From positions 1-55,086 of the IMG/VR virus record IMGVR_UViG_3300017783_003926: 55,086 bases of DNA. One strand, 5' to 3'. The position numbers and the translations under genes are program-made. Position 1 is the first letter of the stretch; each line of letters opens with the position of its first letter. Positions 3,366 to 51,774 of the stretch are shown here, in pieces. Source of the DNA: a virus. The notes under the pieces are model-generated. The model searched no databases and was not told the origin of the DNA. It saw nothing but the letters and a program-made list of their open reading frames with translations.

Positions 3366-6300
3366 ATGTCAAGTGAAAATGGTAGTATTCTTGTAAGACG
3401 TGGTCCTACAACTGACAGAGATGCGTTTACTCCTCTTAATGGTGAAATAATATATGACACTACTACAGGTCAACTACATGTAGGTGATGCAGTAACCGCA
3501 GGTGGTACTACAGTATTTGGTGACAAAGTTAAAGTTGATTCTGCTGGTAACTTATCAGAAATTTACATGCGAGGTGAAGAACCTAGACCGGCTCCGGTTG
3601 AAGGATTATTTCGTTATAATGCATTAACACAAAGTCTAGAATATTCCGACGGTAATACATTTTATCAAGTAGCATCAAGTCCTTTTACAGGATCGTCAAA
3701 TGTGATGTATGTTTCGACAAATGGTAAAGATGATAACACATACGGATCAAAAAGAGGTCGTACTCCAGGTACAGCATTTAGAACACTAAACGCAGCTTGT
3801 AGAGAAGCTCAACGTGTTATGGACAAAGCCTCTTTAGGACTAGGTCCGTATCAAAAATGGATTACATATACTAATGCAGCAGATGCACAAGTAAGGTCAG
3901 TAATATCGTCAGTAACTGATAGCGGACCATATAAAAATATCCAGATGTCTAAAGAGACATACGAGTTAGATGCTACAACTGAACTAAGAAGCGGCATGCG
4001 TATTGTTGGACAGAATAGCGGTGCTGTTGGACTTATAGAAGAATATACTAAGAACGTTGGCGGTACATCTGATACACTTATTATTGATGTAGAGAACGGT
4101 GAATTTTTACAAGGCGAACAAATTAAATTTGGTAATGCTATTCCTAGTTTACCATATCAAACATTTGAAGCAGGAAACAATGAATCACCAGAAATAACCA
4201 TTAGGCTTGAAACAGGTATTTACTACGAACACTTTCCGATTAAAGTTCCAAACAATGTTTCCATCAAAGGTGATGAATTTAGAAGAAGCATTATTCGACC
4301 AAAACCAGGTGCAAGTGCAAGTCCGTATTCAGAAATAAAATTTAAACGTAACGCTGATAAACTAGAACTTGATCCTGCTGTTGTTGGAGAGCGTCCGTTT
4401 GGTGCTCACTACTTAACAGATCGTGCTAACCTAATATATACCTTTGTTAACAATCCAGGTGCTTATGTTGATGATTACAATGTATTGTTTTCTAGTAAAG
4501 CAACACTTCAAGATGCTGTAATTACTTTTATAACAAGTACATATCCTAGTTTAACATATGATGTAGATAAGTGTAGACGTGACGTTGGCTACATTGTTGA
4601 TGCTCTTTCAATAGACTTAAGAGATGGCGGCAAATTAGAAACACTAAACAATGCACTAATGTATCAAGGACAACTGCCAGCAAATCAGGTAACTGAAACT
4701 GCCGCGGCGCTTGATTATCTAGCAACACAGATAGCGCCTTTACTAACTACAGACGCACAAGTAATATCAAATAGTTTTATTGGCGGTATTGCAAATATTA
4801 TACGCGGTACAGGCTTTAATGCTCCTAAAGATAATGATACACTTGATGTATTCTTAATGAATGATGCTACAATTATTAGAAACTTGTCAGTACAAGGACA
4901 TGGCGGATTTATGGAAGTGCTTGACCCAGAAGGGCAAATACTTACTAAATCACCTTACACACAAACTTGTTCAAGTTTTAGTAAATCATTAGCACCCAAA
5001 GTAAGTTTTGCAGGTGGTATGTTTGTTGATGGATTCTGTGGTAACCAAGATGCAAGAATTGTTCAAGCAAATAGTACAACTGAAATTGTTATAGACAATA
5101 TATACAGAGAGCCACAAACTCCAACTAGTTTCTTTATTGATGGTGTTAGGTGGCAAATTAACAAAGTAGATAAAGTTGGTGTATCAGCAGACCAGTGGAG
5201 ATGTGTACTGTCAGAAGATACTCCATGGACTGATGCACATTACGAAGTAATTAATCCAGGGCAAACTTTACCAACACTGCCTTATGATATAGAAATATTA
5301 ACAGCAGGTAATATATCCATGCTGTCAAATGACTTTACACAAATTAACGATTTGGGTTATGGACTGTATACTACAAACGGTTCACGTGCAGAAGCAGTTA
5401 GTGTATTCTGTTACTATTGCCATGTAAGTTATCTTGCAGAAAACGGCTCAGATATTAGATCACTCAACGGTTCAACTGCATACGGTGACTATGCATTATT
5501 AGCAAGAGGTAGTGATCCTTTAGAAGTCAGTGATGATGTAGTACTAGCTGATGATATGATCCAAACTGGTACAGCAATGACTGATGCTACCTATACAAAC
5601 ATACAAGGTGGCACAGTTATCTATGTTGACAATCTTTCATACGCACCGTATAACATCAGTGAAGTTGATGTTGATCACAATGGAGCAAATAACGTATTAG
5701 GCGACCCAACTTATCTTACTAGATATGAAGTTATTAGTGTTAGTGCCGTTGAAGCAACTTCGCCTCAATTATATCAACTTAACATTGCAGCAGGAGAAGC
5801 AAGTAACCCTGGTGTTCAAATTACTATACCAGACGGAACTCCTGTAGTCCTACGTAATAACCAAGTAATTAAATATGACGACATATTAGATATCAACCCT
5901 ACTAGACCTAGTACAGCATTACAATATGACGATGACCCAACTAAAGTATATCGTGTGTTAGCATATGATGTTGCTGACTTGCCTGATAACGTAGCAAGGA
6001 TTACATTGCGTGAATCATATGACTATGTTAAATTAGTAGTTGACGACACAGCAGGTAGTACAGCAGGATCAGGACAAGTAGGTGATACTACTATTAGACT
6101 TGATACTAACTTAGATCCTAATGAGCAATCAAGAATTGAAAACGGAATTAGTGTTGGACCAAAATACATCTTTGGATTTAATGACACTATCCACCAAGTA
6201 ACAGCATACAGAGATAAAACCGCAACAGGACAAACATATGCAGAGGTAGATATTACTCCTGCTCTTACTAAGTCACTCGGCGGGTATCCAGATAAGCCTA

Positions 6301-9300
6301 CACTACGAGCAGGTTTACCAGCAGGTGGTCAAGCAGACATTACAGTAGGTATCAGTACACTTAGAGTTACTGGACATGACTTACTTGACATTGGTACAGG
6401 AAGTTACCAGACATCAAGTTATCCAAGAGAAATTTACGGTAAACCTGAGATTGCTAAAAACCAAGCAAGAGAAGTAGTTGAAGAAGGTAAAGGGCGTGTG
6501 TTCTTTGTAACAACTGACCAAGATGGTAACTTTAGAGTAGGAGATTATTTTAAAGTTGACCAAGGAACAGGTACAGTTACTTTTGCCGCAAGTATTGCTC
6601 TTTCAAACTTAGACGGCATTGGATTTAAACGTGGTGTTGCTGTAAGTGAATTTAGTACAGACGACGGCATGACTGATAATGCAACAGACACAGTACCAGT
6701 AGAAAGTGCTGTAAGAAACTATGTAAATCGTAGACTAGGGATTAACCATGCTGGTGCAACAGTTCCAGGTATTATAGGACCAGGCTTCTTAGATCTAAAT
6801 GGCACAAAGGCTATGGCCGGCAATTTAGATATGGATAGCAATAACATTGACAATATCAGTGTGTTAACTGTGGCAACACTTGATGCAACATCAAGACTAA
6901 GTGTTCCGTCAGCAGGAACTGTAGCAAGTGGAAACGTTGGTGATATAAAATACAATACTGATACACAAAGATTTGAAGGTTACTTATCATCCAATCAATG
7001 GGGTTCGTTAGGCGGAGTAAGTGATGTCGATGGTGACACTTATGTACAAGGCGAAACAACACCAGGTAATGACAATGATGACTTAGATTTCTATACAGCA
7101 GGAACACAAAGATTACAACTTGATGAGACTGGTGATTTTAAATTTGGTGATGGACTAAACAAAGTTACTATGGACTTTACAACAGGTGATATTGTAACGC
7201 CTGGGGACATAGACGTTGCTACACTTGATGTAGGAACATCAGCAGAAATTGCAACACTAAAAGTTGAGGACTTAACCGCAGGTCGAGTATTACTAGCAGG
7301 CACTGACGGAGAGATAGAAGATAGTGCAAACTTAACATTCAACGGAACTAAACTAACAGTTGACGGCAATGCTGAGATTACTGGTAATGTGGTTATTGGT
7401 GGAAACATTACAATTGGTGATGCAGATACAGATTCAATTATAGTATCAGCAGACTTTGAAGGCAATCTTATACCTGATACAGACGATTTATATGACCTAG
7501 GTACAAATACAAAACGTTGGAGTGAGCTGTTCCTAAATGATAAGTTAACTTTAAACGATTATGTATTACCTTTACAAGACGGAACTAAAGGACAACTAGT
7601 AAGTACAGATGGACTAGGACAACTAGGATTTAGTGATAGTGATATATTTGGTGGTAAAAGAGTTTATGTAAGTGCTGAAAAAGGTAATGATGTAAATGAC
7701 GGTGTAACAGCACCTGTAGCAACTATCAAACGTGCTATGCAAATTGCATCAGGCATGGTATACAATGTATCTAAAGATGTTGTAGACAGAGCTACAGTAA
7801 TGGTTGCAACAGGCGAGTACATACTTGATAACCCTGTAATTATTCCAGACAATGTTTCAATTGTAGGCGACAGTATTAGAACTGTAATTTTAAGACCAGC
7901 AAATGAAAACGAAGACATGTTTAGAGTGCGTAATGCTTCTTACATGTTTAACATGACATTTAGAGATGCACTATCAGGAACTGTACCTATAGCGGCATTT
8001 AGATTTGCTGTAGCATTTGATAATCCAAATGACTCTGCTACAAGTAGAGCAGGATATACAAACTTGCCTAACACACGAGTGTTAATAACTACTTCACCAT
8101 ATTTACAAAACTGTTCAGTAATCAGCTTCTTAGGTGCTAATGGTGTTGAAATAGACGGTGACCTTGTTGTTACTCCTAACACACCAGGTAATGCTATTGA
8201 AGCAGAGAATCCTGTAACACCAGAAGATGGACAGCCTGAACAAGGTAAGAGTATGGTTGCTAATGCATTTACTATTCTATCCTTTGGAGGTGTAGCATGG
8301 CGTGTAATGAACGATGCGTATGCACAGTTGGTTAGTTGTTTTGTTATTTTTGCAGAACAAGGATGTTTAACACAAAACGGTGGTTATCTATCTATTACAA
8401 ACTCAGCAACAAACTTTGGTTACTTTGCACTAAGGTCAACAGGTTATTCACCAAGAGTATTTAATACTGACAAAGGTATTATTGGTAATGTTGGTGTTGT
8501 AGACAATGTACAGAATGTTAACATTGTAGGACTTCAACGTGATACTGTAAACCAATATGTAATGCGAGTAATGAACTTAGCAAGCCAAGACGTTACTAAT
8601 ACATTTAATAATGACACAGCAAGAGGTGTAACAGTATCGTTTACAGCAGGTAATGCATCAGGTAATAGTATTGCTACAACTGGCAATCATGGATTATCTA
8701 CAGGTGATCTAGTACAATATAATAAAAATGGTAATTTAGAAATAGTAGGATTACTTAACGAAGCAACTTATTATGTTTCTGTTGTTAATGCAAGTTCACT
8801 ACAATTATTCCATGATGCTGATCTAACTAAACCTGTAACAGGTGTTAATGGTGGATCAAGCACAGGCACTCATCAACTGTTACATGACTTTGAAGAAATA
8901 TTCATTGACGAAGTTTTATCAAGTCATAATAACTATCAGGATGTTTATTTGCCAGCAGGCTCTTATACTGTTACTAAAGGATCATTAATATCAGCAACAT
9001 CAGGTAGTGATAATATTAGTGCAACTGTTGTAAACTTTGATAATAATATATTAACAGTTTCAGTTGAAAAAGTACAAGAAGGTAGTGTTTCAGTAACTAA
9101 CTTCTTTAGTACAGGTGCTGTTATAGATGCAGGAGAAATTAGTGTTAGTTCTGTAACAGTCAGTAATGTAGTTAATAGAACAGATTTAATTACAATTAAT
9201 GCTGCTGTTAAGACTACTAAAGATAGAGAAGTACAAAGTTTTGGTTTACTACAAGGTAACCAAGCATGGTTACACCGTCCAAGTATTACAAACTCATCAG

Positions 9301-12300
9301 CACACACTTGGGAATATAGTGGTAGTGGTGTTGACTATAATGCGTTGCCAGAGAATGGCGGTGTAGGTGTTGACACATTTGAACAATACAGTGACTTACC
9401 AGGTAGAGTATATACATCAGGTACTAACGAACTTGGTGACTTTAAGATTGGTGACTTTATTGTAGCATTTAACAGAACTGGTAACATCATATTTAGAAAC
9501 CAAGTTAGTATTGGTGAGTTAGACAGTTTGGCACTTAGCCTAAGTGGCGGTGTAAGAGTTACAGCAATTAGTAATGATCCAGACCTCGGTGACAACGATG
9601 TTGACGGAGCATTAGATTCAAGACTTGTAACACAGTTAGCAGTTAAATCGTTTATGAACGATAGACTAGGAAACTTCATTGATAGAAATGTAAGTACTAA
9701 TGCTGTACCAAGTGCTGTTGTTCAACTTAACAGTCAAGGTTTAATTAATCAAGATCTTATTCCTCCAACAGGTGCATTTGAAAGTTTCACTGTAGACGAA
9801 TACGGCGGACGATTAACTGTATCACAGGATATACCTGCTCCAAATATTAGTGCAGGTGATATTGTTGTAGAAACTTACCCTGAAATTGTTTTAAACCTTA
9901 CAGGTAGTGTAACAGTTACAGCAGGTGATACTATTACACAGGCAACATCAGGTGCAACTGGTATTGTAAAAGAGAGTGGTACAACATCAACTCTTAAATT
10001 AGTAAACACAATTACAGGAACGTTTAATACAACAGACACTCTTAGTAGTAGCGGAACAGGAAACTTAGGTGCAAGTAGTGTACCTACTATTGTTTCAACA
10101 GTAAACACAATTAATGATAACTACTTCTTAAAAACAGACAAAATAAGTCAGTTCTTAGTATTACAAGACGGTGGCACACCGAGTTTCACAAGTATAATTT
10201 CTAACAGTACACCAATTCAAGGTGCAACAAGTAAAGCAGTAGCAACTGTAACTAGCCATGTTGTTGGTGTTCTTAATGCTGTTGATGTAGCAACGTTACC
10301 AGGAGGCAGTGGATATACTACACCAGGTACATATGAAAATGTAAGCATACAAGGCGGAAGTGGTTCTGGTGCAAAAGCAAACATCATTGTTGGTGCAACT
10401 GGAGTAATTACTAGTTTTGATGTTACAGTAGGCGGGTCGTACTATACCGAGTCTGACAATGTTACAGTTAATGATGCAGATGTAGGAGGTCGTTCAGGTG
10501 GTAGTGCAATAAGCATTGGTGTAACTGACATACAAAATAGATTATATGTTGATCTAAATGCAGATACAGGATTACAATTTACAGCAAGTAATATAAACTT
10601 AGACTTTATAGTTGATGACAATCCTCCAACAGATACACTAGCACAGCAAGGACAGGCAATTAAAGCATTCGTAGCCACAAGTACAGGTAGTGGCGGAGAT
10701 GTTGATGTTATTAATGATAAAATTGTTTTCCAATCAGCACACGGATTACAAAACGGAGATCCTTTGTATTATGATAGTAATGCAAATACACCTTTAGGCG
10801 GTCTTCTTAACAATACTACATACTATGCAAAAGTTCTTACAACTACAGAAATTGAACTGTTTGCAAATTACGGTTTAACAGCCGCTGGGAAAGTAGACAT
10901 AACAGCATCAAGTAGCGGAACACATAACTTTAAAGTGTTCAATGTTAACCAATATGCTAATACTTTCTTCGTACCGATCCATGGGCTATCCACTGGTGAT
11001 GCGATCAAGTTTGAATCATCATCTCCACCTACTGGAATCGACAGCGGCGACTTTTTCTTTGTTGGCTCTGTAACACTAAACAGTTTTACACTACACGAAG
11101 CAAGAGGTGCGGCACTAGACAGCGTTGGCGGGTTGACAGTATCGCCTGTTAACATAACTAGTCAAGGTGGTGCTGTAAACGGAACACTAACAGAACAAAA
11201 TGTTATTATAGTAGACGATGTTAATACTAGTGGCGACTTAGAATCAAGTTGGAGTAGTTTAAGTACAACAACTATTGATGCAGGAAATATTATTAGTGGT
11301 GTAGTAGATACATCTAGACTTGCTAGTGGAAATGCAAATGACAAATCATTCTTAAGAGGAGACCAAACTTGGGCAACGGCTGTACAGTCTATTACAAATA
11401 GCACAGTAGGTGATCCAATAACCTTAACAAGTACTGATGTTAACGGCACTAACTTTTATAACAATGTAGACATTAAAATTGAAAAAGCAAGTTACACTAA
11501 CCCGGCGGCACCAAGTGTAGGAACAGAAACATTAGGTATTGCTAGTTACCACTTTGATCACTTTGAAATTGACGCCAATGGACGAGTAACTACTAAAGCA
11601 TCGGGCAACGGTGGTGTTATTGATGCTGATAAACTTGATAATCAAACAGGTGCTTATTACTTAAACCCAGTTAACTTATCAAGAGGAGTTCCAATACAAC
11701 GAGGTGGAACAAACTTAATTAGTTATGCACAAGGTGATTTATTATATGCTGGTTCAGTACTAGGAGGCGCACCAGCAGACTATGACGAGACATTAACAAA
11801 ATTAACTATTGGTAGTGCTAGAAATGTACTACAAGTTAAAGCAGACGGAACAGCACCTCAATGGACAAACGCCTTAAGTGTTTCAACTATTGAAACAAGT
11901 AGTAATGTAACTATTGGTGGTGACTTAACTGTTAATGGTACAACAACTACTGTTAATACAGAAACAATTAACCTTGCTGATAATATTATTTTACTTAATA
12001 GTAATCTTGCAGGTAACGTTGCACCAACACAAAATTCAGGTATTGAAATTGAAAGAGGTAATGCGGCCAATAAAACATTAATTTGGAACGAAACAGACGA
12101 CAAGTGGACTGTTGGTTCTGAGACATTCGTTGCAGGAACACTTGAAGGAGACTTAGACTGGTCATACTTACAAAATGTAGTAGACCCTGTAATTACAGTA
12201 ACACTAACAGGTGACGTAACGGGTACAGGCACAGCAACAATGACCGACTTAGGTAGTGCAACAGCAAGTTTTGCAACTACTATTGAAGCAAACAGTGTTG

Positions 12301-14288
12301 AACTTGGTACAGACACAAGTGGGCAATATGCAGAAACACTTACTGCAGGTGACGGCATAGCCGCTCTAACTGCTAATGCAACTGACGGAACAGCATATAC
12401 TATATCACATGCTGACACATCACCTGATATAGCAAATGTAGATCTTGGTGCTGAAGAGTTTGTAAATGAAATTACCTTTGATGATTTTGGTCACGTTCTA
12501 ACTGTAGGAAGTGCTACTGTTACAGCACCAAGCAATGCAGAAATTACAATATCAGCAGGCACCGACCTTTCAACAGGCGGAGCATTTACGCTTAATCAAG
12601 CCGACGCAGAAACAATTACAATTGACCACTCGGATATTACTAGATCCGATACAACGGCTAGTGATAGTTTATCATATGCAGGAACGTTTGATGTAATAGA
12701 CAGCGTTACATCAAATGCTAGAGGCCATATAACAGCGGTCAATGTTAAAACACTTACAATGCCAAGTGCTGGTGCTAACGACAATACTACATATACAACA
12801 AGTGTAGTACAATCTACCACAGGTAATGACAGCAATCCAATAATACGTTTAACAGACAGTGATGGCACCGAAGATGATATTACAATTAGTGGTGGAGGCG
12901 ATGTAAGTGTAACTAGAACAAGTGCATCAGCATTTAAAGTAGAGGCCACTTTCCCAACTGACGACGATACAACTTACGATTTAAGTTTAGTTGATAACCT
13001 ATCAACTAATGACTCAGTTGATATTAAACTTAATCCTAGTAGCGGTACCGCAGACCTAGTAACAATTGAAGCAGGTACAAATATATCTATAGAGGTTGAC
13101 GGCGACAATGCTAACGGATTTATAATTAGCTCAACTGATAATACAGTTGATGTAGATGATACTCCAGTAGATAATGCAACTGGATCAGCAATATCAAGTA
13201 ATTGGGCGTTTGACAATGTTAAAACAGCAGTACCAGAAAATGCATTGTTTACAGATACTAATACGAACCAACTTACTACTTGGACCTTAAGAGACAGTGG
13301 TGATGATGATGTAACTATTGGTCAGAGTAAATTTGTTAAGTTTGTAACGGCTACAGGAGCATTAGGCACTAATACAGCAGGATCTGGAACAACCGCAGAT
13401 CCTTACGTAGTAACACTTACATCTCCAAATGATAATACGGTAACGACTGTATCTTCTACTCCAACCGATGGAGCAACAACTACAGCAATTAGCTCAGGCT
13501 GGGCATTTGACAATGTTAAAACAGCAGTACCAGAAAATGCGTTATTTACTGATAACAATACAGAATATGATGTTGCAACAGATAGTACAGCAGGCCTTGT
13601 TAAAATAGGTGCTCAACCAAGTGCTTCTAATTATTATGCAATTGAATTAGACAGCAATGACAGAATGTATGTTAATGTACCTTGGACTGATACTGATAAT
13701 AAATCATATACTAGTTTCATTGAAGGTAATCAAAGTTCTACTGCAGAGTGGAATTTAGTATTTGTTAATGGGTCATCAGCTAATACTTCTGCAGCACAAT
13801 TAAAAGAATTAACTGTAGACGAACATAGTAGTGGTACTGGTGGATTAACTTATATACCTAGTTCAGCAACACTAAGGACAACTAAGTTTCAAGGTACAGC
13901 GACATCAGCAGAATATGCGGATTTGGCGGAGGTTTATTCAAGTGATATAAACTATAAGGCAGGCACTGTTGTAATGTTCGGCGGCGAGCAGGAAGTTACT
14001 ACAGCAACAGGTTTAGCAACAACTAAAGTAGCAGGTGTTGTATCAACTGACCCTGCATATTTAATGAACTCAGAGGCAAAAGGTGTTGCTGTTGCACTTA
14101 AAGGACGAGTACCATGTTATGTAGTAGGACCAATTAAGAAAGGCGACCTACTAGTAACTAGTTCAATTCCGGGTGTTGCATGTAGAACTGAGTCGTGGGT
14201 AGGCGGCGCCGTTATTGGTAAGTCAATTGAAGACTGTCCAAAAGAGTTTGAAGTAAGATTAATAGAAATAGCAATAGGATCAATATAA
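3366..14288 (+). CDS. Giant tail-fibre / virion structural protein
   Basis: 3640-residue protein, the largest in the window. The N-terminus (ILVRRGPTTDRDAFTPLNGE to QLHVGD) resembles receptor-binding protein N-domains of the Mtd type. Two parallel-beta-helix-like starts (YVSTNGKDDN near residue 116; YVSAEKGNDVNDG near 1434) are followed by NNVSIKGD/DNVSIVGD strands. HGL-x-x-GD modules recur near residues 1773, 2459 and 2539. A GDLTVNGTTTTVNTETINL segment with IWNETDDKW lies near 2855-2920. Two near-identical WAFDNVKTAVPENALFTD repeats lie near 3280 and 3379. The end, from SAEYADLAEVYSSD (about 3513), resembles the autoproteolytic chaperone-type C-terminus (Peptidase_G2-like) of phage fibres. 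Composition is Thr/Asn/Gly/Ser-rich with very few Cys. A PAAR gene follows with a one-base overlap, placing it in the tail-tip/baseplate module. Confidence 0.88.
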   Translation: MSSENGSILVRRGPTTDRDAFTPLNGEIIYDTTTGQLHVGDAVTAGGTTVFGDKVKVDSAGNLSEIYMRGEEPRPAPVEGLFRYNALTQSLEYSDGNTFYQVASSPFTGSSNVMYVSTNGKDDNTYGSKRGRTPGTAFRTLNAACREAQRVMDKASLGLGPYQKWITYTNAADAQVRSVISSVTDSGPYKNIQMSKETYELDATTELRSGMRIVGQNSGAVGLIEEYTKNVGGTSDTLIIDVENGEFLQGEQIKFGNAIPSLPYQTFEAGNNESPEITIRLETGIYYEHFPIKVPNNVSIKGDEFRRSIIRPKPGASASPYSEIKFKRNADKLELDPAVVGERPFGAHYLTDRANLIYTFVNNPGAYVDDYNVLFSSKATLQDAVITFITSTYPSLTYDVDKCRRDVGYIVDALSIDLRDGGKLETLNNALMYQGQLPANQVTETAAALDYLATQIAPLLTTDAQVISNSFIGGIANIIRGTGFNAPKDNDTLDVFLMNDATIIRNLSVQGHGGFMEVLDPEGQILTKSPYTQTCSSFSKSLAPKVSFAGGMFVDGFCGNQDARIVQANSTTEIVIDNIYREPQTPTSFFIDGVRWQINKVDKVGVSADQWRCVLSEDTPWTDAHYEVINPGQTLPTLPYDIEILTAGNISMLSNDFTQINDLGYGLYTTNGSRAEAVSVFCYYCHVSYLAENGSDIRSLNGSTAYGDYALLARGSDPLEVSDDVVLADDMIQTGTAMTDATYTNIQGGTVIYVDNLSYAPYNISEVDVDHNGANNVLGDPTYLTRYEVISVSAVEATSPQLYQLNIAAGEASNPGVQITIPDGTPVVLRNNQVIKYDDILDINPTRPSTALQYDDDPTKVYRVLAYDVADLPDNVARITLRESYDYVKLVVDDTAGSTAGSGQVGDTTIRLDTNLDPNEQSRIENGISVGPKYIFGFNDTIHQVTAYRDKTATGQTYAEVDITPALTKSLGGYPDKPTLRAGLPAGGQADITVGISTLRVTGHDLLDIGTGSYQTSSYPREIYGKPEIAKNQAREVVEEGKGRVFFVTTDQDGNFRVGDYFKVDQGTGTVTFAASIALSNLDGIGFKRGVAVSEFSTDDGMTDNATDTVPVESAVRNYVNRRLGINHAGATVPGIIGPGFLDLNGTKAMAGNLDMDSNNIDNISVLTVATLDATSRLSVPSAGTVASGNVGDIKYNTDTQRFEGYLSSNQWGSLGGVSDVDGDTYVQGETTPGNDNDDLDFYTAGTQRLQLDETGDFKFGDGLNKVTMDFTTGDIVTPGDIDVATLDVGTSAEIATLKVEDLTAGRVLLAGTDGEIEDSANLTFNGTKLTVDGNAEITGNVVIGGNITIGDADTDSIIVSADFEGNLIPDTDDLYDLGTNTKRWSELFLNDKLTLNDYVLPLQDGTKGQLVSTDGLGQLGFSDSDIFGGKRVYVSAEKGNDVNDGVTAPVATIKRAMQIASGMVYNVSKDVVDRATVMVATGEYILDNPVIIPDNVSIVGDSIRTVILRPANENEDMFRVRNASYMFNMTFRDALSGTVPIAAFRFAVAFDNPNDSATSRAGYTNLPNTRVLITTSPYLQNCSVISFLGANGVEIDGDLVVTPNTPGNAIEAENPVTPEDGQPEQGKSMVANAFTILSFGGVAWRVMNDAYAQLVSCFVIFAEQGCLTQNGGYLSITNSATNFGYFALRSTGYSPRVFNTDKGIIGNVGVVDNVQNVNIVGLQRDTVNQYVMRVMNLASQDVTNTFNNDTARGVTVSFTAGNASGNSIATTGNHGLSTGDLVQYNKNGNLEIVGLLNEATYYVSVVNASSLQLFHDADLTKPVTGVNGGSSTGTHQLLHDFEEIFIDEVLSSHNNYQDVYLPAGSYTVTKGSLISATSGSDNISATVVNFDNNILTVSVEKVQEGSVSVTNFFSTGAVIDAGEISVSSVTVSNVVNRTDLITINAAVKTTKDREVQSFGLLQGNQAWLHRPSITNSSAHTWEYSGSGVDYNALPENGGVGVDTFEQYSDLPGRVYTSGTNELGDFKIGDFIVAFNRTGNIIFRNQVSIGELDSLALSLSGGVRVTAISNDPDLGDNDVDGALDSRLVTQLAVKSFMNDRLGNFIDRNVSTNAVPSAVVQLNSQGLINQDLIPPTGAFESFTVDEYGGRLTVSQDIPAPNISAGDIVVETYPEIVLNLTGSVTVTAGDTITQATSGATGIVKESGTTSTLKLVNTITGTFNTTDTLSSSGTGNLGASSVPTIVSTVNTINDNYFLKTDKISQFLVLQDGGTPSFTSIISNSTPIQGATSKAVATVTSHVVGVLNAVDVATLPGGSGYTTPGTYENVSIQGGSGSGAKANIIVGATGVITSFDVTVGGSYYTESDNVTVNDADVGGRSGGSAISIGVTDIQNRLYVDLNADTGLQFTASNINLDFIVDDNPPTDTLAQQGQAIKAFVATSTGSGGDVDVINDKIVFQSAHGLQNGDPLYYDSNANTPLGGLLNNTTYYAKVLTTTEIELFANYGLTAAGKVDITASSSGTHNFKVFNVNQYANTFFVPIHGLSTGDAIKFESSSPPTGIDSGDFFFVGSVTLNSFTLHEARGAALDSVGGLTVSPVNITSQGGAVNGTLTEQNVIIVDDVNTSGDLESSWSSLSTTTIDAGNIISGVVDTSRLASGNANDKSFLRGDQTWATAVQSITNSTVGDPITLTSTDVNGTNFYNNVDIKIEKASYTNPAAPSVGTETLGIASYHFDHFEIDANGRVTTKASGNGGVIDADKLDNQTGAYYLNPVNLSRGVPIQRGGTNLISYAQGDLLYAGSVLGGAPADYDETLTKLTIGSARNVLQVKADGTAPQWTNALSVSTIETSSNVTIGGDLTVNGTTTTVNTETINLADNIILLNSNLAGNVAPTQNSGIEIERGNAANKTLIWNETDDKWTVGSETFVAGTLEGDLDWSYLQNVVDPVITVTLTGDVTGTGTATMTDLGSATASFATTIEANSVELGTDTSGQYAETLTAGDGIAALTANATDGTAYTISHADTSPDIANVDLGAEEFVNEITFDDFGHVLTVGSATVTAPSNAEITISAGTDLSTGGAFTLNQADAETITIDHSDITRSDTTASDSLSYAGTFDVIDSVTSNARGHITAVNVKTLTMPSAGANDNTTYTTSVVQSTTGNDSNPIIRLTDSDGTEDDITISGGGDVSVTRTSASAFKVEATFPTDDDTTYDLSLVDNLSTNDSVDIKLNPSSGTADLVTIEAGTNISIEVDGDNANGFIISSTDNTVDVDDTPVDNATGSAISSNWAFDNVKTAVPENALFTDTNTNQLTTWTLRDSGDDDVTIGQSKFVKFVTATGALGTNTAGSGTTADPYVVTLTSPNDNTVTTVSSTPTDGATTTAISSGWAFDNVKTAVPENALFTDNNTEYDVATDSTAGLVKIGAQPSASNYYAIELDSNDRMYVNVPWTDTDNKSYTSFIEGNQSSTAEWNLVFVNGSSANTSAAQLKELTVDEHSSGTGGLTYIPSSATLRTTKFQGTATSAEYADLAEVYSSDINYKAGTVVMFGGEQEVTTATGLATTKVAGVVSTDPAYLMNSEAKGVAVALKGRVPCYVVGPIKKGDLLVTSSIPGVACRTESWVGGAVIGKSIEDCPKEFEVRLIEIAIGSI
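13203..13556 (+). repeat. Pair of coding direct repeats in the fibre gene
   Basis: Two nearly identical stretches of about 55 bases at 13203-13258 and 13501-13556, 298 bases apart. Both encode WAFDNVKTAVPENALFTD and differ mostly at third codon positions. They mark duplicated fibre modules and offer a site for intragenic recombination. Confidence 0.8.
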
Positions 14289-15052: not shown

Positions 15053-16198
15053 GTGGATCAAAGAATATACGAAATTTTAGACAAAGAGGTTGATAGGCAA
15101 GCAACCACAATAGAATTAATTGCAAGTGAAAACTTTGCAAGTGATGCTGTAAGAGACTTGTCAGGAAGCGTGTTTACTAACAAATACGCAGAAGGTTACC
15201 CAGGTAATAGATATTACAACGGTTGTGATCATATGGACGAAATTGAAACATTGGCCATAGAAGAACTAAAAAAGTTGTATGGCTGTGAATTTGCAAATGT
15301 ACAACCGCATTGCGGAGCAAATGCTAACACCGCAGTTTATCAAGCATTTTTAAAGCCCGGTGATACAATACTAGGTATGGATCTAGCAAGTGGCGGTCAT
15401 TTAAGTCACGGTAGTAAACCAAACATATCTGGTAAGATCTATAACGCACACACTTATGGTGTTGACGAAATAACAGGGTTATTAGACTATGGTGCTATAA
15501 TGGCACAGGCTAAAGAAGTACAACCTAAAATGATTGTTGCTGGTGCAAGTGCATATCCAAGATCTATTGATTGGAGTTTATTCCGTGAGATTGCAGATAG
15601 CGTAGGAGCATTACTATTAGTTGATATGGCACACTATTCAGGACTTATTGCAGGTAATGCATATCCTAGTCCGTTACCATATGCAGACATAGTAACAAGT
15701 ACAACACACAAGACTCTTAGAGGCCCACGTGGCGGTATTATACTATGGAATAACCCGGATTATACAAAACGAATTAATAGTGCAATATTTCCAGGAACAC
15801 AAGGCGGACCGTTGATGCATATCATTGCCGCTAAAGCACAATGTTTTGCTGAAGCAAATACAGATGAGTTTAAAGAATATGCTCAACAAGTAGTACAGAA
15901 TGCAAAGGCAATGTGTAGAGTGTTTTTACAAAATGGATTAGAAGTGCAAACTAACGGAACTGATAGTCACATTATTTTAATGGACTTGTCATCAAGTAAG
16001 TTTAGTGGTAGACAAGCAGCTGACTTGTTAGAAGAAAATGGTATTACTGTGAATAAAAACGGAGTTCCAAATGATCCTAGATCGTTTATTGAAACCAGTG
16101 GTATTAGAATAGGAACTGCAGCTGAAACTACACGAGGCCATGATGAAGCATGGTTTGTACACTTAGCACAACGAATATCAGACCTCTTAAAACAATAG
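15053..16198 (+). CDS. glyA: Serine hydroxymethyltransferase
   Basis: PLP enzyme converting serine plus tetrahydrofolate to glycine plus methylene-tetrahydrofolate, the one-carbon donor for dTMP synthesis. Family landmarks are ELIASENFAS at residues 21-30, NKYAEGYPGNRYY at 43-55, DMAH at 191-194, and the PLP lysine K220 in STTHKTLRGPRGG. At 381 residues it is shorter than typical GlyA (about 417), with a trimmed N-terminus and C-terminal region, but the active-site motifs are intact. GTG start at 15053, one base after the preceding stop. Together with NrdAB it could support thymidylate supply during infection. Confidence 0.95.
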   Translation: MDQRIYEILDKEVDRQATTIELIASENFASDAVRDLSGSVFTNKYAEGYPGNRYYNGCDHMDEIETLAIEELKKLYGCEFANVQPHCGANANTAVYQAFLKPGDTILGMDLASGGHLSHGSKPNISGKIYNAHTYGVDEITGLLDYGAIMAQAKEVQPKMIVAGASAYPRSIDWSLFREIADSVGALLLVDMAHYSGLIAGNAYPSPLPYADIVTSTTHKTLRGPRGGIILWNNPDYTKRINSAIFPGTQGGPLMHIIAAKAQCFAEANTDEFKEYAQQVVQNAKAMCRVFLQNGLEVQTNGTDSHIILMDLSSSKFSGRQAADLLEENGITVNKNGVPNDPRSFIETSGIRIGTAAETTRGHDEAWFVHLAQRISDLLKQ

Positions 16199-16210
16199 GA
16201 AAGGAACACA

Positions 16211-16435
16211 ATGCTGTGGGTAGATTACAATATTGAAAGTTTTCCGGACGGAAGTTTTACTGTAAAAGGAGAATGGCCCGGAGAAGTAATGGGTCGTCAA
16301 GTAAATGGCGATGAAAAAGACCATTGGTTATACAAGCCGGGTGATGTTTTTATAGTAGATGAAAACGGAATCTTACGTAAGTCGGATCAGTTATCTGCAT
16401 TAATAACGAAATACGAAAAAAATAATGAAGTGTAA
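16211..16435 (+). CDS. Conserved hypothetical protein
   Basis: 74-residue acidic protein with an AAAGGA ribosome-binding site. It is rich in Trp, Gly and Asp (DYNIESFPDGSFTVKGEWPGE; HWLYKPGDVFIVDENG), suggesting a small beta-sheet domain. No motif or signal peptide is visible. It overlaps the next start by 11 bases. Function unknown. Confidence 0.7.
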   Translation: MLWVDYNIESFPDGSFTVKGEWPGEVMGRQVNGDEKDHWLYKPGDVFIVDENGILRKSDQLSALITKYEKNNEV

Positions 16436-16724
16436 ACAAGGCGACTTAGCCGTTATAAAATTTAGCATACGCCCAGAGAACATCGGGCGTATTGTTAAAG
16501 TAGCGGAACTTATAGGTCGCTATGAAGCCGGAACACAATTTGCATATAGAGGCATGCCCTGCCAAGCCGTTGTTACAGACACTTATTGGTGGATTGAAGC
16601 AGACGATCTAAGCATACAATTAGGACCATCGCCTCGTGCATACATTCCGGATACATGGTTAGAACCAATAAAACCAGAAGAAGAAAAAGCAGAAACAAAA
16701 GCTGAATTAGAATTCGAACTGTAG
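16425..16724 (+). CDS. Conserved hypothetical protein
   Basis: 99-residue protein beginning MKCKQGDLAVIKFS, with a predicted beta-rich core (NIGRIVKVAELIG; YWWIEADD) and an acidic low-complexity tail (KPEEEKAETKAELEFEL). The pattern of a QGDLAVI start and a later PDTWLEPI recurs in small proteobacterial and phage proteins of unknown function that I have seen, so it is probably genuine. Co-transcribed with its neighbours. Confidence 0.75.
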   Translation: MKCKQGDLAVIKFSIRPENIGRIVKVAELIGRYEAGTQFAYRGMPCQAVVTDTYWWIEADDLSIQLGPSPRAYIPDTWLEPIKPEEEKAETKAELEFEL

Positions 16725-16736
16725 AAAGGATAGGCC

Positions 16737-16952
16737 ATGAAGCCTAACAAAAATTTTAGTCTTGAAGTACGAGACATAGAGATTATTGAACAAGCATTAA
16801 GAGCTAAGGCAGGACGTAGAGGACTTGCTATTGCACAAGGCGAAACATCACCACAGCTCAAAGAAGAAATGCACGAAATACAAGAACTGCTAGGACGCAT
16901 ACATAATCAAAAGAATTGGTATACTCCAAAAGAATTTGTTCCGGGTGGTTGA
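16737..16952 (+). CDS. Small helical protein
   Basis: 71-residue protein with two probable amphipathic helices (SLEVRDIEIIEQALRAKAG; SPQLKEEMHEIQELLGRIHNQ) and a short tail NWYTPKEFVPGG. AAAGGA ribosome-binding site. The TGA stop lies inside the TTGACA -35 element of the tmRNA promoter, so coding and promoter sequence overlap. Function unknown. Confidence 0.75.
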   Translation: MKPNKNFSLEVRDIEIIEQALRAKAGRRGLAIAQGETSPQLKEEMHEIQELLGRIHNQKNWYTPKEFVPGG

Positions 16953-16979
16953 CAAACACCTAAAATGACTGTATAAATA
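16949..16979 (+). promoter_or_regulatory. tmRNA promoter, composite sigma70 / late-like
   Basis: TTGACA at 16949-16954 and TATAAA at 16972-16977, 17-base spacer. The -10 reads TATAAATA (16972-16979), an exact T4 late promoter core, so one site could serve host-type and late-type polymerase. The expected start site is a few bases before the acceptor piece of the tmRNA. Confidence 0.75.
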
Positions 16980-16984
16980 TAACT

Positions 16985-17270
16985 GTAACGTTGAAGCAAA
17001 TCAAACGCTATACAGGACCCGGGGGCGGTACCCGGCGACTCCACCAAAAATACATTCTGCTTACTGTATAGCAGAAGCAACAGACTGATAAACTGGGAAT
17101 GTATTTTTGATGGGGTCGAAATAGGATCGACTGGTAGTTAATAGATAAGTGGAGTTGCCCGGCGCAAGCACGGTTATCGCAAGAAAACAAATAGAAGCAA
17201 ACGAAAACTTCGCATTAGCAGCCTAGGCTGTTACGAGGTAGTTAGACCTTGTTACCAAACATAGCAGGAA
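16985..17270 (+). ncRNA. ssrA: Circularly permuted (two-piece) tmRNA, alphaproteobacterial type
   Basis: Rescues stalled ribosomes and tags the nascent chain for proteolysis. The gene order is permuted. The acceptor piece comes first, with a T-arm at 17019-17035 (stem CCGGG/CCCGG, loop GGCGGTA), acceptor strand CGACTCC at 17036-17042, then A and an encoded CCA at 17044-17046. An intervening segment follows, closed by a perfect 12-base inverted repeat (17046-17057 with 17097-17108). The coding piece starts GGGGTCG at 17112-17118, which pairs over seven bases with the acceptor strand, then GGATCGACTGG, the conserved tmRNA D-loop region. The tag frame runs 17197-17226 (GCA resume codon to TAG), encoding ANENFALAA. 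Outer ends are approximate. A terminator hairpin follows. Confidence 0.93.
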
Positions 17271-17303
17271 AGGTGTTGCAGAGATGTAACACCTTTTTCT
17301 TTT
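17271..17303 (+). terminator. Intrinsic terminator of the tmRNA
   Basis: Ten-base-pair stem (17271-17280 with 17285-17294, one G-U) capped by a GAGA tetraloop and followed by TTTTTCTTTT. Strong rho-independent terminator. Confidence 0.9.
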
Positions 17304-17408
17304 ATCCTTCCACTCTTGCACAATAAGGGTGCATAAATGATAACTATTAATGTGAGCAACACAATCCCACCCCGCTCACTAATAAGAATAATAAAAGGAA
17401 ACTAATCA

Positions 17409-17816
17409 ATGCGTACAACCGTACTAGCAATCGTAGCCGCTCTGGCTACTACATCAGTAAGTGCAGCAGATCTAGGTATAGCCGGACTGTCACTTAACAC
17501 AGAAGTAAAAGCATTTCACAAAGTAGATGCAGAAACTAATCACATTACAATAGAGCCAGAATTACGTTGGACACCTAATGCAGGTCCGTTATCAATGTAT
17601 GGCGAAGTTCCATTAACAATGTATGAAACAAATCACGCATCAGGCGATGATTTTGCTGTAACAAACATTTGGGACGAAGGTCACAAGCCAACACTAGAAC
17701 TTGGTGTTGATTATACTATCAATTCAAGTACAATGGCATATGCCGAAACAACATACGACTATAATAAAGACAAAGGTCGTGGTGAAATTGAAATCGGTGT
17801 AGCATTTAACTTCTAA
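17409..17816 (+). CDS. Small outer-membrane beta-barrel-like protein
   Basis: 135-residue exported protein. It has a clear signal peptide (MRTTVLAIVAALATTSVSAA, cleavage after SVSA). Alternating-residue strands follow (HITIEPELRW, LSMYGEVPLTMYE, PTLELGVDYTI, TMAYAETTYDY, GEIEIGVAFNF). It ends in an aromatic Phe, the outer-membrane barrel C-terminal signature. It is too short for a closed barrel of more than eight strands; an OmpA-like or oligomeric barrel is possible. The leader between the tmRNA terminator and the ATG contains an inverted repeat GTGAGC/GCTCAC (17352-17357, 17374-17379). Role on an infected cell is unknown; receptor masking is one speculation. Confidence 0.8.
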   Translation: MRTTVLAIVAALATTSVSAADLGIAGLSLNTEVKAFHKVDAETNHITIEPELRWTPNAGPLSMYGEVPLTMYETNHASGDDFAVTNIWDEGHKPTLELGVDYTINSSTMAYAETTYDYNKDKGRGEIEIGVAFNF

Positions 17817-17833
17817 GTAAAATACTGTAACTT

Positions 17834-17862
17834 AAAAGGTCGCTTTATGCGGCCTTTTTTTA
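17834..17862 (+). terminator. Intrinsic terminator after the barrel gene
   Basis: Ten-base-pair stem AAAAGGTCGC/GCGGCCTTTT (17834-17843 with 17849-17858, one T-G), loop TTTAT, followed by a run of T. Confidence 0.9.
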
Positions 17863-17864
17863 TG

Positions 17865-17872
17865 GCTAAATA
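17865..17872 (+). promoter_or_regulatory. Late-promoter-like box (GCTAAATA)
   Basis: GCTAAATA immediately downstream of a terminator and 36 bases upstream of the nuclease gene. No TTGACA lies at a suitable distance, so this is the only promoter candidate for that gene. Confidence 0.45.
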
Positions 17873-17908
17873 ATACGGGCATATAATTATTACAAAGCGA
17901 GGGCAAGT

Positions 17909-18364
17909 ATGTACGAATATAAATGTAAAGTATTAAGAGTAGTCGATGGAGACACTGTTGATATAGATATTGATTTAGGGTTTGGAATGTGGATGCACAA
18001 AGAGCGTGTTCGTATAATGGGCATAGATACGCCTGAGTCAAGAACAAGAGATAAAGTAGAAAAAGCATTTGGATTAGCATCAAAAGCAAGACTAAAAGAA
18101 ATGTTACCAATTGGATCAATTCAACATCTTAAAACAGAAATTGATAGAAGTGGCGAAGATAAAAGAGGAAAGTTTGGAAGAATCCTCGGAGACTTTATTA
18201 TAGACGATAAGCGAGTTACTGAAGTACTTGTTGAAGAAGGATATGCTGTAGCATATTTTGGCGGATCAAAAGAAGAAGTTGAAATGAAGCACATGGCAAA
18301 TAGAGAAAAACTTCTACGTGAAGGTAAAGTAACATTACCAAAGTCAAAAAAATCAAAAAAGTAA
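17909..18364 (+). CDS. Staphylococcal-nuclease-like (TNase) protein
   Basis: 151-residue thermonuclease-fold protein. The catalytic pattern aligns with staphylococcal nuclease at nearly the same numbering: VVDGDTVDID at 11-20 with Asp ligands, R35, D40, T41 and E43 in RVRIMGIDTPES, and the second arginine in KFGRILGDF (about 85-92). Family members cleave DNA and RNA in a Ca-dependent way. No signal peptide is present, so it acts in the cytoplasm, perhaps on host nucleic acid. The C-terminus is a lysine-rich tail (LPKSKKSKK). Confidence 0.92.
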   Translation: MYEYKCKVLRVVDGDTVDIDIDLGFGMWMHKERVRIMGIDTPESRTRDKVEKAFGLASKARLKEMLPIGSIQHLKTEIDRSGEDKRGKFGRILGDFIIDDKRVTEVLVEEGYAVAYFGGSKEEVEMKHMANREKLLREGKVTLPKSKKSKK

Positions 18365-18379
18365 AATCACCAAAATAGA

Positions 18380-18408
18380 TTGACATTCGTGTCTACCTGT
18401 GTTATAGT
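18380..18408 (+). promoter_or_regulatory. Sigma70-like promoter
   Basis: TTGACA 18380-18385, 17-base spacer, TATAGT 18403-18408, upstream of the gene at 18440. Confidence 0.75.
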
Positions 18409-18439
18409 ATTACTATAATATAGGCACGAGGTAGGCACA

Positions 18440-18892
18440 ATGACAATGCATTTAGCAAGAGGACTTAGTACTATCAGTACTAAGAAGCGTAAGAAAAAAC
18501 CTCTTACACAAAAAGATATCGAAAGGTATACTGTCGAATGGCGTAAACACAATAAAGCGATGCGTCGAAATCATAATCATGCACTACAATATGCAACTGT
18601 TGAAGATTACATTGCATATGTAAGGGGCGAGTATAAAGCACCTGAACGTAGTCGTGGCACATATACACCAGACACATCGTGGCATAGAGAACAACCAAAA
18701 ATTCCTTCTGCAATGGAAGAAGCAATTAAGAATGGTACATTCAATAGAGGTTGTTCGGGCGGTACTAAAAAAGAATCACCTAAATATACAGGTGACCTTA
18801 TTGTAGGTATTGCAACTATGCATAAATCAAATGCTGTTCCTGTTATGCGTGGCACTAAACAGGCAGAAGAAATCGCAAAGATGCGGAGGTAA
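18440..18892 (+). CDS. Conserved T4-like marine phage protein
   Basis: 150-residue basic protein. The N-terminus MTMHLARGLSTISTKKRKKK, followed by helices (TQKDIERYTVEWRKHNKAMRR) and a YATVEDYIAYVRG segment, recalls a protein recurrent in marine T4-like phages. The second half is Gly/Ser/Pro-rich and ends in a short helix (TKQAEEIAKMRR). No enzymatic motif is seen. It ends 2 bases before the wall hydrolase gene, in the same transcript. Confidence 0.82.
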   Translation: MTMHLARGLSTISTKKRKKKPLTQKDIERYTVEWRKHNKAMRRNHNHALQYATVEDYIAYVRGEYKAPERSRGTYTPDTSWHREQPKIPSAMEEAIKNGTFNRGCSGGTKKESPKYTGDLIVGIATMHKSNAVPVMRGTKQAEEIAKMRR

Positions 18893-18894
18893 TA

Positions 18895-19476
18895 ATGAGT
18901 AAAATCTTTAATTGGGTAGTTGGAACTTTTATTTTTACATTTGGAATTGTTGGGGCAACTATAGCATACCCTTCAACTTTCCAAGATCCAGTACCAGGCG
19001 AACTTTTTACAGAAAGAGACCAGCCTGAGTTATATTGTTTAGCAATGAATATCTATCATGAAGCAAGAGCAGACAACTTAGCAGGTCAGTATGCTGTTGC
19101 TGATGTAGTTTTGAATCGTGTAAAGGATACACGTTATCCGAATACTATTTGTGAAGTAGTAAAGGACGGAAAGTATAAGGAAAGTTGGAAAACAAAACAA
19201 TATCCTGAACTGCTTGATAGCGAACGTAAGTATATTCCTATTAGAAATAAATGTCAATTTAGTTGGTGGTGTGATGGCAGAAGCGACACAGCATTTGATA
19301 TTGATTCGTGGATGCGAGCTCAAGACATTGCTGAGAGATTAGTATATATAGGTTCTTATAGAGGTATCACTGAAGGTGCTACTCACTATCATGCAACGTA
19401 TGTTTCACCTAGATGGGCGTCCGAACTTGATCAGATTGGTCGAATTGGATCACACATTTTTTATAGGTGGCACTAG
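18895..19476 (+). CDS. SleB-type cell wall hydrolase, probable endolysin
   Basis: 193-residue peptidoglycan hydrolase of the SleB/CwlJ (Hydrolase_2) family. An N-terminal hydrophobic segment (residues 5-25, WVVGTFIFTFGIVGATIAY) could be a signal-anchor-release or signal sequence. The domain begins ELYCLAMNIYHEARADNLAGQYAVADVVLNRV (about 42-73), including the catalytic HEA glutamate. It continues with YPNTICEVV and QFSWWCDGRSD. It is the best lysis enzyme candidate in this window. The three lipoproteins that follow could cooperate at the outer envelope, though no canonical spanin pair is obvious. Confidence 0.88.
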   Translation: MSKIFNWVVGTFIFTFGIVGATIAYPSTFQDPVPGELFTERDQPELYCLAMNIYHEARADNLAGQYAVADVVLNRVKDTRYPNTICEVVKDGKYKESWKTKQYPELLDSERKYIPIRNKCQFSWWCDGRSDTAFDIDSWMRAQDIAERLVYIGSYRGITEGATHYHATYVSPRWASELDQIGRIGSHIFYRWH

Positions 19477-32797: not shown

Positions 32798-33922
32798 ATG
32801 CAGTTTGCTAGGTATATCCTTACTGCACTACTTTGGTTACCAATTACAGCATATGCAAATATTGGACAAGTAGCTGATCAAAAGGGTAATGGTGCGATTG
32901 AAAGAGGTAGAGATCTAGTTGGTAGTGGCGTTGGCACTGAAATACAAAGTATGGATGCTGCTGTCACTACTAACGGAACTATGCGAATCGACTTTATTGA
33001 CGATACTCGAGTAGATATCACACAACATAGTAAACTTATTATTGACGAATTTGTGTTTGATCCAGCAAATGATATCGGATCACTAAGTCTAAAAGCGTCA
33101 TTAGGAACAGTAAGGTACGCATCTGGACAAATTGCAAAGAAGTATAAGCAAAATGTTAAGATTCGTACGCCAAGTGCAACAATCGGTGTACGTGGTACTG
33201 ATTTCGTAATGGTTGTAGACGAAGTTGGCGGAAGTTTAATTACGCTTCTACCAAGTTGTGACTCTGCTGGAAACTGTTATACTGGAGAGATAACAGTGGA
33301 AACAGACGCAGGAATGGTTATTATGAATCAAGCATTCCAAGCAACGGCAACACAGACTTCTTCACAGCCTCCGACACCACCCAGACTGTTAGACTTACCA
33401 GAAGATATGATTGATGCTCTTTTAATTGTAAGAAAGAAAACACCGTGGGTTGAAGACGAGGAAGAATGGAAAAAGGCAAAGAAACAAACAGCAGATATTT
33501 TAGGTATTGATTATTTAGAGTTTGAAGGATTGGATGTTGAAGTATTTCAAAACCAAGAAGAAATATGGCACACTGAACTTGACGAAACAGACTTTATGTT
33601 AGGCGACTTATTAATAGATATTTTAGAACAACTTAATATTCAATTAGCAGAACTATTTAAAGATGAATTTGAAAAACAAAAAACAGACTTTAGCGGAGTT
33701 AAGTTAGGGTTTGATCCGACAACAGGGGTAAAAATTACAGACGTAGATCCATCATATCTATTTGAAAGATATGACAATGTAGGAACTAACAATGTATACC
33801 TAAAGTTGCATAAAGGAAGCGGAGGATATACTATCAATTTACAACAGGGCGATTTCGAATTAATAGATTATAGAATCGGAACTGGTCCTAATAGTATTGA
33901 CATATATCAAAATAGCCAATGA
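32798..33922 (+). CDS. Secreted FecR-domain protein
   Basis: 374-residue exported protein, signal peptide ending AYA/NIGQ. A FecR-like beta domain spans about residues 30-180: GRDLVGSGVGTEIQSMDAAV, DFIDDTRVDITQHSKLIIDE, GTVRYASGQIAKK and the diagnostic TPSATIGVRGTDFVM near 125-139. The C-terminal half is acidic and helical and ends in a curlin-like strand (GPNSIDIYQNSQ). No membrane segment follows, so it is not a FecR sigma regulator but a surface/periplasmic version, as found beside surface-structure operons. It overlaps the next curlin gene (ATGA). Confidence 0.8.
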   Translation: MQFARYILTALLWLPITAYANIGQVADQKGNGAIERGRDLVGSGVGTEIQSMDAAVTTNGTMRIDFIDDTRVDITQHSKLIIDEFVFDPANDIGSLSLKASLGTVRYASGQIAKKYKQNVKIRTPSATIGVRGTDFVMVVDEVGGSLITLLPSCDSAGNCYTGEITVETDAGMVIMNQAFQATATQTSSQPPTPPRLLDLPEDMIDALLIVRKKTPWVEDEEEWKKAKKQTADILGIDYLEFEGLDVEVFQNQEEIWHTELDETDFMLGDLLIDILEQLNIQLAELFKDEFEKQKTDFSGVKLGFDPTTGVKITDVDPSYLFERYDNVGTNNVYLKLHKGSGGYTINLQQGDFELIDYRIGTGPNSIDIYQNSQ

Positions 33923-35128: not shown

Positions 35129-35347
35129 ATGGAGTATAGGTATAAAGAATATACTTTTTATCACGAATACGGAAAAGGAAAACTGTTTAAAGGTGATACT
35201 CTATTATTCAAAGGCAATGCCTGGTCTGGCATATTGCAATTCATTAATGTAACTAACAATGCTCCTGAGGTACAAGAAATGTTTAAAACTTATCTTGAAC
35301 ACAATAAAAAATATCAATCACAGTACATGGAAATAAATACAGTATGA
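35129..35347 (+). CDS. Small hypothetical protein
   Basis: 72-residue soluble protein, Tyr- and Lys-rich (YRYKEYTFYHEYGKGKLFKG), with a strand-helix pattern and no signal peptide or recognisable motif. It overlaps the adenylate cyclase start (ATGA), so it is part of the curli-cyclase operon. Function unknown. Confidence 0.7.
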   Translation: MEYRYKEYTFYHEYGKGKLFKGDTLLFKGNAWSGILQFINVTNNAPEVQEMFKTYLEHNKKYQSQYMEINTV

Positions 35348-50781: not shown

Positions 50782-51072
50782 ATGAAGATTCGCCCATTAC
50801 ACGATCGAGTGATCGTACGTCGTGAGGAAGAAGAAAAGAAAACAGCAGGTGGAATTTTCCTACCTGGTACAGCACAAGAAAAACCTAACCAAGGAGAAGT
50901 AATTGCCGTCGGTAGTGGAAGGGTTTTAGAAAACGGAGAAGTTACTCCAGTTGATGTTAATATCGGTGACATTATTGTATTTGGTCAATTTGCCGGTAGT
51001 GACAAGATTGATGCAGACGGTGAAGAACTAATTATTCTTAGCGAAGGCGATATTAAAGCCGTAATTGAATAG
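50782..51072 (+). CDS. groES: GroES-like co-chaperonin
   Basis: 96-residue Cpn10. It starts [20 protein letters not shown], with the mobile loop [20 protein letters not shown] (about 19-38) that docks on Gro[13 protein letters not shown] follows, then the roof region and the C-terminal strand [17 protein letters not shown]. It is much closer to bacterial GroES than to T4 gp31. It would cap host GroEL to fold phage proteins such as the major capsid protein. It lies between tRNA genes with no obvious promoter of its own. Confidence 0.95.
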
Positions 51073-51480: not shown

Positions 51481-51774
51481 ATGAGAGAATGGGTATACAA
51501 CTGTTGGAATGTAGTAATGGATCACGAAAAGAATCCACTAAGTAATATTCCGGATTTTAGTACACGACATATGATTATGCAAGTATTAGCATGGATGTGG
51601 TGTATTATCTTTGCTATCATTGTAGGTAGTATGTGGGCAGGTATTTTTAGTATGGTGCTTCATGCATTATTGCTAGGTGCGATTGCAGTTACAGTAGCAA
51701 CATTTGAAACTGCAAAACGTAAGCCACAATACTTTGGCGGCTTTGGTCGTGGACAAGGTGGCGAACACGAATAA
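51481..51774 (+). CDS. Membrane protein
   Basis: 97-residue protein with AAAGGA upstream. Cytoplasmic-type N-terminus (REWVYNCWNVVMDHEKNPLS), two membrane helices (IMQVLAWMWCIIFAIIVGSM; IFSMVLHALLLGAIAVTVAT) and a Gly-rich tail (PQYFGGFGRGQGGEHE). Its stop overlaps the next start (TAATG). Function unknown. Confidence 0.75.
   Translation: MREWVYNCWNVVMDHEKNPLSNIPDFSTRHMIMQVLAWMWCIIFAIIVGSMWAGIFSMVLHALLLGAIAVTVATFETAKRKPQYFGGFGRGQGGEHE

Follow-up and report, generated by a model that had tools for sequence, protein, structure and literature searches.

The window, the whole stretch of 55,086 nucleotides analysed here, is a 55-kb contig of 37.3% G+C, from a virus of marine bacteria, that carries a permuted tmRNA gene. 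Two Rfam covariance models match it above their gathering cut-offs, RF04321 at 16985-17226 (101.9 bits, E 8.7e-19, cut-off 47) and RF01849 at 16945-17300 (93.2 bits, E 4e-24, cut-off 50), the latter being the only RF01849 match in a search of the whole record. A preliminary description, made from the letters alone, had called the feature a complete permuted ssrA gene in a phage genome and had proposed covariance models as the check; the matches to the permuted tmRNA models bear it out. ARAGORN listed ten tRNAs on the window and missed the permuted tmRNA gene. The locus is composed of the following elements.

16949-16977, + strand: sigma70-like promoter, TTGACA-17-TATAAA, read by eye; overlaps the stop codon of the ORF at 16737-16952
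16985-17046, + strand: acceptor piece, with the T arm, the 3′ acceptor strand (17036-17042) and the CCA (17044-17046); from sequence reading and covariance models
17047-17111, + strand: linker, 65 nt, closed by the inverted repeat 17046-17057/17097-17108; no protein-coding ORF
17112-17298, + strand: coding piece, with the 5′ acceptor strand (17112-17118), the tag frame and a 3′ part up to the terminator
17197-17226, + strand: tag reading frame, ANENFALAA plus stop TAG
17267-17298, + strand: intrinsic terminator, from the terminator scan

The acceptor strand and the CCA stand upstream of the 5′ strand, which gives the permuted order of the pieces. Over seven bases, CGACTCC of the acceptor strand pairs with GGGGTCG of the coding piece, and the third pair is a G-U (G3-U70). 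The CCA, read from the sequence, ends the acceptor piece, and its A is the first base of the 12-base inverted repeat that closes the linker. Both the seven-base pairing and the repeat had been reported in the preliminary description and were confirmed in the sequence. The tag frame, GCA AAC GAA AAC TTC GCA TTA GCA GCC TAG, has the alanine resume codon GCA and a C-terminal Ala-Ala (codons 17197-17223). The folding of the window RNA beats each of 100 dinucleotide shuffles (z −4.96).

The gene was also said to have signals of its own. Its terminator is listed by the scan, while promoter-like elements, TTGACA at 16949-16954 and TATAAA at 16972-16977 with a 17-nt spacer, are recognizable by eye; the promoter scan does not list them because its rule requires a T at position 6 of the −10 element. 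The same promoter arrangement precedes the tmRNA of locus L018 (by eye).

Comparison to the bacterial alphaproteobacterial permuted tmRNA (RF01849) supports a permuted, two-piece-type form of that kind: the order of the pieces, the G3-U70 acceptor stem, the T arm, the GCA resume codon and the Ala-Ala tag end are held in common. However, the window scores 93 bits with RF01849, compared to 227-307 bits for the genes of 15 named bacterial contigs and 143-255 bits in 40 small-genome bacteria, so the window RNA is reduced or diverged. Its linker of 65 nt also differs from the bacterial median of 24 nt (178 loci).

Phage group and origin of the gene

The window is a member of the Melnitz/pelagimyophage group. 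Its CHASE2-cyclase (35344-37395) shares 65.2% identity, along its entire length, with the cyclase of Methylophilales phage Melnitz and 46.6% with that of Pelagibacter phage HTVC008M. It adjoins a curlin-repeat gene (33919-35115), an arrangement that marks membership of this group. The curlin-repeat gene, the ribonucleotide reductases, and the endonuclease and endolysin (17909-19476) correspond by name and order to genes annotated in Melnitz. Relatives of the cyclase, a CHASE2-domain adenylate/guanylate cyclase, are encoded on at least 592 IMG/VR stretches. The window also encodes a serine hydroxymethyltransferase (15053-16198), a GroES-like co-chaperonin (50782-51072) and a TonB-dependent receptor-like beta-barrel (52694-54547), and a single ORF of 3640 codons occupies 3366-14288.

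Two-piece tmRNA was reported in 2022 for the window's own group (PMC9004378), so the chief surprise of the preliminary description was already in print. According to that paper, Melnitz has a two-piece ssrA, 53 of 133 phage tmRNA structures are two-piece, and 17 of 47 Melnitz-cluster contigs have a permuted tmRNA; these counts contradict the view that phage tmRNAs are of the one-piece kind. PMC11915505 counts 79 unique bacteriophage tmRNA sequences and describes RF04321. The window gene is real, and it adds one more example of a tmRNA type that its own phage group was known to carry. Both Melnitz and Pelagibacter phage Mosig (PMC9004378) fall in this group and have the same alphaproteobacterial-type permuted tmRNA. 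The tags of the window (ANENFALAA) and of Melnitz (ANDNYVPVDYALAA) both end in LAA, whereas the window linker is non-coding and that of Melnitz contains an ORF lacking a CDS annotation.

In Melnitz and Mosig the tmRNA precedes a late-transcription gene, whereas in the window, judged by gene names and order, it is positioned upstream of the endonuclease/endolysin cluster and not beside the late-transcription gene. Within the group, the gene has therefore either changed place or been acquired on more than one occasion. A search of 16000-18000 for the glutamine riboswitch that Melnitz has gave no match, even at E 10. Among 90 distinct related records, 33 have RF04321 matches (15/50 in one set and 19/46 in another, six records being common to both and one of these a match). 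The set of 50 represents 50 of the 80 loci of one search, and the set of 46 represents 40 of the 80 cyclase-relative loci listed together with six of the first search. The other 57 records, in a collection made up mostly of fragments, gave no RF04321 match, and the tmRNA gene is probably not universal in the phage group.

A tree was built with FastTree from 99 short sequences, 64 from bacteria and 35 from phages, with the linkers removed. It places the window among 28 sequences that form a clade made up of phages only (support 0.84) and that include an inner clade of 13 (support 0.96). The nearest sampled bacterial sequence is 0.92 substitutions per site from the window. Deep nodes are weak, and the node next after the phage clade has a support of 0.07. 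The tree suggests that the tmRNA has long been resident in phages, and it names no donor. The gene had been taken as a pointer to the host group, a reading left unsupported by the position of the window inside the phage clade and by its distance from the nearest sampled bacterium. Melnitz itself has an alpha-type ssrA, yet infects the gammaproteobacterial OM43 clade (PMC9004378). Regarding the proposed capture from the host group, some alphaproteobacterium remains a plausible source, while the phage clade speaks against a recent event. Exact copies of the first 20 bases of the coding piece are present in many Rhodobacteraceae (at least 120 stretches, 80 of them listed). A Rhodobacteraceae host on the basis of these matches was rejected, because acceptor stems vary among the phage relatives and the tree places the window in the phage clade.

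Linkers and their reading frames

In 112 viral loci picked by a tmRNA motif, which may include prophages, the linker has a median length of 79 nt and is at least 100 nt long in 40, compared to a median of 24 nt and 2 of 178 for bacterial loci. The bacterial control is composed of two sets, picks by a Rhodobacteraceae-typical motif and the best covariance-model scores of each search, and loci were dropped when both pieces were unparsed (7/119 viral, 7/120 and 9/74 bacterial). Counts from scans of the collections hold among the matches listed and are not frequencies. On sequence comparison, linkers vary widely in this phage group and are exchanged between tmRNA bodies. The window's linker, the same or nearly so, is also found in L289, L290, L291 and L293, and in L289 and L290 this linker type accompanies a different acceptor stem; the Mosig linker is nearly that of L282 and L284. 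Bacterial locus L432, which may be a phage contig inside a genome bin, starts with nearly the linker sequence of viral contig L022. Isolates were fetched for 5 of 9 matches, and DSS3P8, among the isolates, was unparsed. In RcXuper, DSS3_MAL1, RcSimone-Hastad and Cp1R7A-A1 the linkers measure 93-109 nt and lack a 27-codon ORF, so that a long linker is not always coding.

ORFs of at least 27 codons are present in 32 of the 41 distinct viral linkers of at least 100 nt, a set assembled without regard to ribosome-binding sites. In 27/32 the ORF starts no further than 24 nt into the linker, and a purine-rich, ribosome-binding-like stretch precedes 20 of the ORFs and is missing from 12. Eleven stop at +13, on the TAG of the GGGGNCGAAATAG sequence with which the coding piece commonly begins, and eight at −1, where the final base of the stop codon is one base before the coding piece; with 13 stopping elsewhere, 19/32 stop at two fixed positions of the tmRNA boundary. 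The longest ORF exceeded that of dinucleotide shuffles at p<0.05 in 23 of 49 distinct linkers of at least 100 nt (combined p 7e-22), a set that includes loci chosen for a Shine-Dalgarno-like start and in which 26 linkers are individually non-significant. A loose ORF rule was satisfied by 36/112 viral loci, 5/35 relatives, 0/5 isolates and 3/178 bacterial loci. Both covariance models span the linker in all 12 long-linker loci tested.

Coding linkers among the 35 nearest genes parsed are those of Melnitz, L294, L305 and L306; L298, with an ORF in a 68-nt linker that is probably due to chance, was left out. The Melnitz ORF lies inside the annotated SsrA and is present in each of the four deposited strains, themselves nearly identical (longest-ORF p 0.003). 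The window's own linker holds no cargo ORF, the longest being 5 codons, and was rejected as a protein-coding slot on that ground. Among the matches listed in a search of openly licensed papers, we found no report of linker ORFs in phage two-piece tmRNA.

The 113 distinct linker proteins from all phage sets form 26 clusters, including singletons that are possibly chance ORFs. For two families in three length classes, pN/pS was 0.29, 0.29 and 0.18 in frame, compared to 0.96, 0.94 and 1.27 in the +1 frame (41, 8 and 10 distinct sequences, start codon and search motif masked). Unmasked values of 0.24, 0.21 and 0.13 are biased downwards, as conserved protein motifs had served to find most of the sequences. 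Sequences not found via the protein gave 0.24, 0.22 and 0.19 in frame versus 0.87, 0.89 and 0.81 (9, 4 and 2 sequences). These ratios show purifying selection on both linker families. In the smaller families d and e, the latter including the Melnitz ORF, synonymous changes are saturated and there was no firm selection signal.

IMG/VR was scanned with the degenerate codons of the two proteins alone. Among the matches listed, 76 of 104 new matches of the ..WSICAD.. family and 48 of 78 of the ..YICINNYS.. family are inside a tmRNA linker; of the remainder, some are unrelated, some are on contigs cut near the tmRNA and some are in other operons. Copies of the linker proteins also stand just upstream of a tmRNA (L677, L700, L703, L721) or, by eye, directly behind a tRNA (L747, L757, L759, L647). 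The commonest cargo family had no homologues in phage isolates, and PHROGs and Pfam gave only weak matches for the cargo proteins. The pattern CTCCACCANAAGGAG was rejected, as it found mostly other genes, with a parsed tmRNA in 20 of 110 new loci among the matches listed. In the WSICAD family, a second, overlapping short ORF in another frame precedes the gene in L040, L054, L063, L088 and similar loci. The same second ORF accompanies copies outside linkers in L708 and L718 (by eye), as either two cistrons or a frameshift.

L018 (1982-2668) has a 499-nt linker with two ORFs. The first has the motif IPKYLSG in common with the Melnitz linker protein, and the second is homologous to a protein of the window (55% over 84 aa, E 5.8e-29).

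51481-51774, + strand: gene of a 97-aa protein, behind tRNA-Asn; homologue in the L018 linker, ordinary gene in Melnitz (86.6%)

One family, at least, thus occurs both in a linker and at an ordinary place.

Function of the RNA and its linker

The window, 33 relatives, Melnitz and Mosig make up 36 phage sequences, several of them identical copies. They contain 8 different acceptor stems and 12 different T stems, all fully paired, and G3-U70 is present in 36/36. The 33 relatives were picked by covariance model, and only this set bears on covariation: the parser requires a complementary acceptor stem, so that pairing in motif-picked sets holds by construction. It then accepted 33/33 of the covariance-model relatives. 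Tags of all 35 genes read end in [LM]AA, mostly ALAA, an ending of the sort that the search pattern asks for. The compensated stem changes and the kept degron-like tag end would be the trace expected of selection on a working tmRNA.

The feature is very probably a functional, phage-encoded two-piece tmRNA that feeds host trans-translation. One precursor would be transcribed from the gene's own host-type promoter to its own terminator, and its linker would fold back on itself, lengthening the acceptor stem. RNase P and 3′ processing enzymes are expected to remove the linker, which would be absent from the mature RNA, leaving an acceptor RNA with a CCA end and a coding RNA joined by the acceptor stem. 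By established tmRNA biology, the G3-U70 pair would direct alanine loading, host SmpB would carry the RNA to stalled ribosomes, and the tag A-ANENFALAA would route the unfinished protein to ClpXP-type proteases. A likely use is that ribosome recycling is maintained when phage takeover breaks mRNAs.

Divergence from the bacterial forms would also suit a decoy or inhibitor, a phage RNA that ties up SmpB and alanyl-tRNA synthetase and blocks host trans-translation. This has a precedent in mycobacteriophage DS6A, whose tmRNA, according to PMC11915505, is without a tag frame and inhibits endogenous tmRNA in E. coli. Both RNAs are phage-encoded, but the window keeps a complete, LAA-ended tag and [LM]AA ends the tags of all 35 genes read, which an inhibitor would not need, and the analogy to the tag-less RNA of DS6A is unlikely to extend to the window. 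That the gene is a passive relic, host DNA captured via imprecise excision or at a tmRNA integration site, is highly improbable. tmRNA genes do serve as integration sites, and such an origin is discussed in PMC9004378. However, stem changes are compensated across the phage group, the promoter-like sequence and the terminator are retained, the phage clade is apart from the sampled bacteria, and a PHROGs scan of 30 window proteins at E 0.001 yielded no integrase.

The selected product could instead be the linker RNA, as a small regulatory RNA or decoy that the tmRNA pieces merely process. Sampled viral linkers are three times longer than bacterial ones, the window linker is common to tmRNAs with different bodies, and the four isolates named above have linkers of 93-109 nt without a 27-codon ORF. 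Linkers go down to 29 nt among the relatives, however, and by eye appear unrelated to one another, which makes this reading improbable.

Compared to the tmRNA pieces, the linker looks like the new part, being, in the sampled loci, longer in viruses than in bacteria, exchanged and often coding. The linker of the phage permuted tmRNA is probably a cargo slot that holds a small protein gene in many related viruses, with one precursor acting as both messenger and source of the two-piece tmRNA and translation coming before processing; the window would be a short, non-coding allele. The slot gene would usually start no more than 24 nt past the CCA, in many cases preceded by a ribosome-binding site, and would often borrow its stop codon from the boundary of the tmRNA itself. 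Folding predicts this ribosome-binding site to be open on the unfinished transcript and sealed once the linker stem closes. With the coding piece and the final 25 nt of the linker removed, it was predicted to be more open in 38 of 40 linkers, with a median unpaired probability of 0.44 in the truncated transcript compared to 0.00 in the full precursor; these were the first 40 linkers in which a ribosome-binding site comes early, many of them from a single family, and they were folded with no shuffled control. The predicted openness fits translation of the nascent transcript before linker-stem closure and processing. Should the linker be a slot for protein genes, a structured non-coding RNA gene also serves as a messenger, and annotation of the whole gene as RNA misses such proteins; the SsrA annotated in cultured Melnitz is an example. 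Such a gene would also provide a simple case of translation, folding and processing in competition on a single transcript.

The tags in these phages range from 9 to about 31 residues, and their variety offers natural tests of the requirements of trans-translation. L285 has the tag ANANYSLAA. The tag of L295 and L296 is NNENYKLAA, in which an apparent AAC resume codon (by alignment) replaces the alanine codon. In L313 and L314 the tags are very long, at about 31 residues, yet keep the ending EDFALAA.
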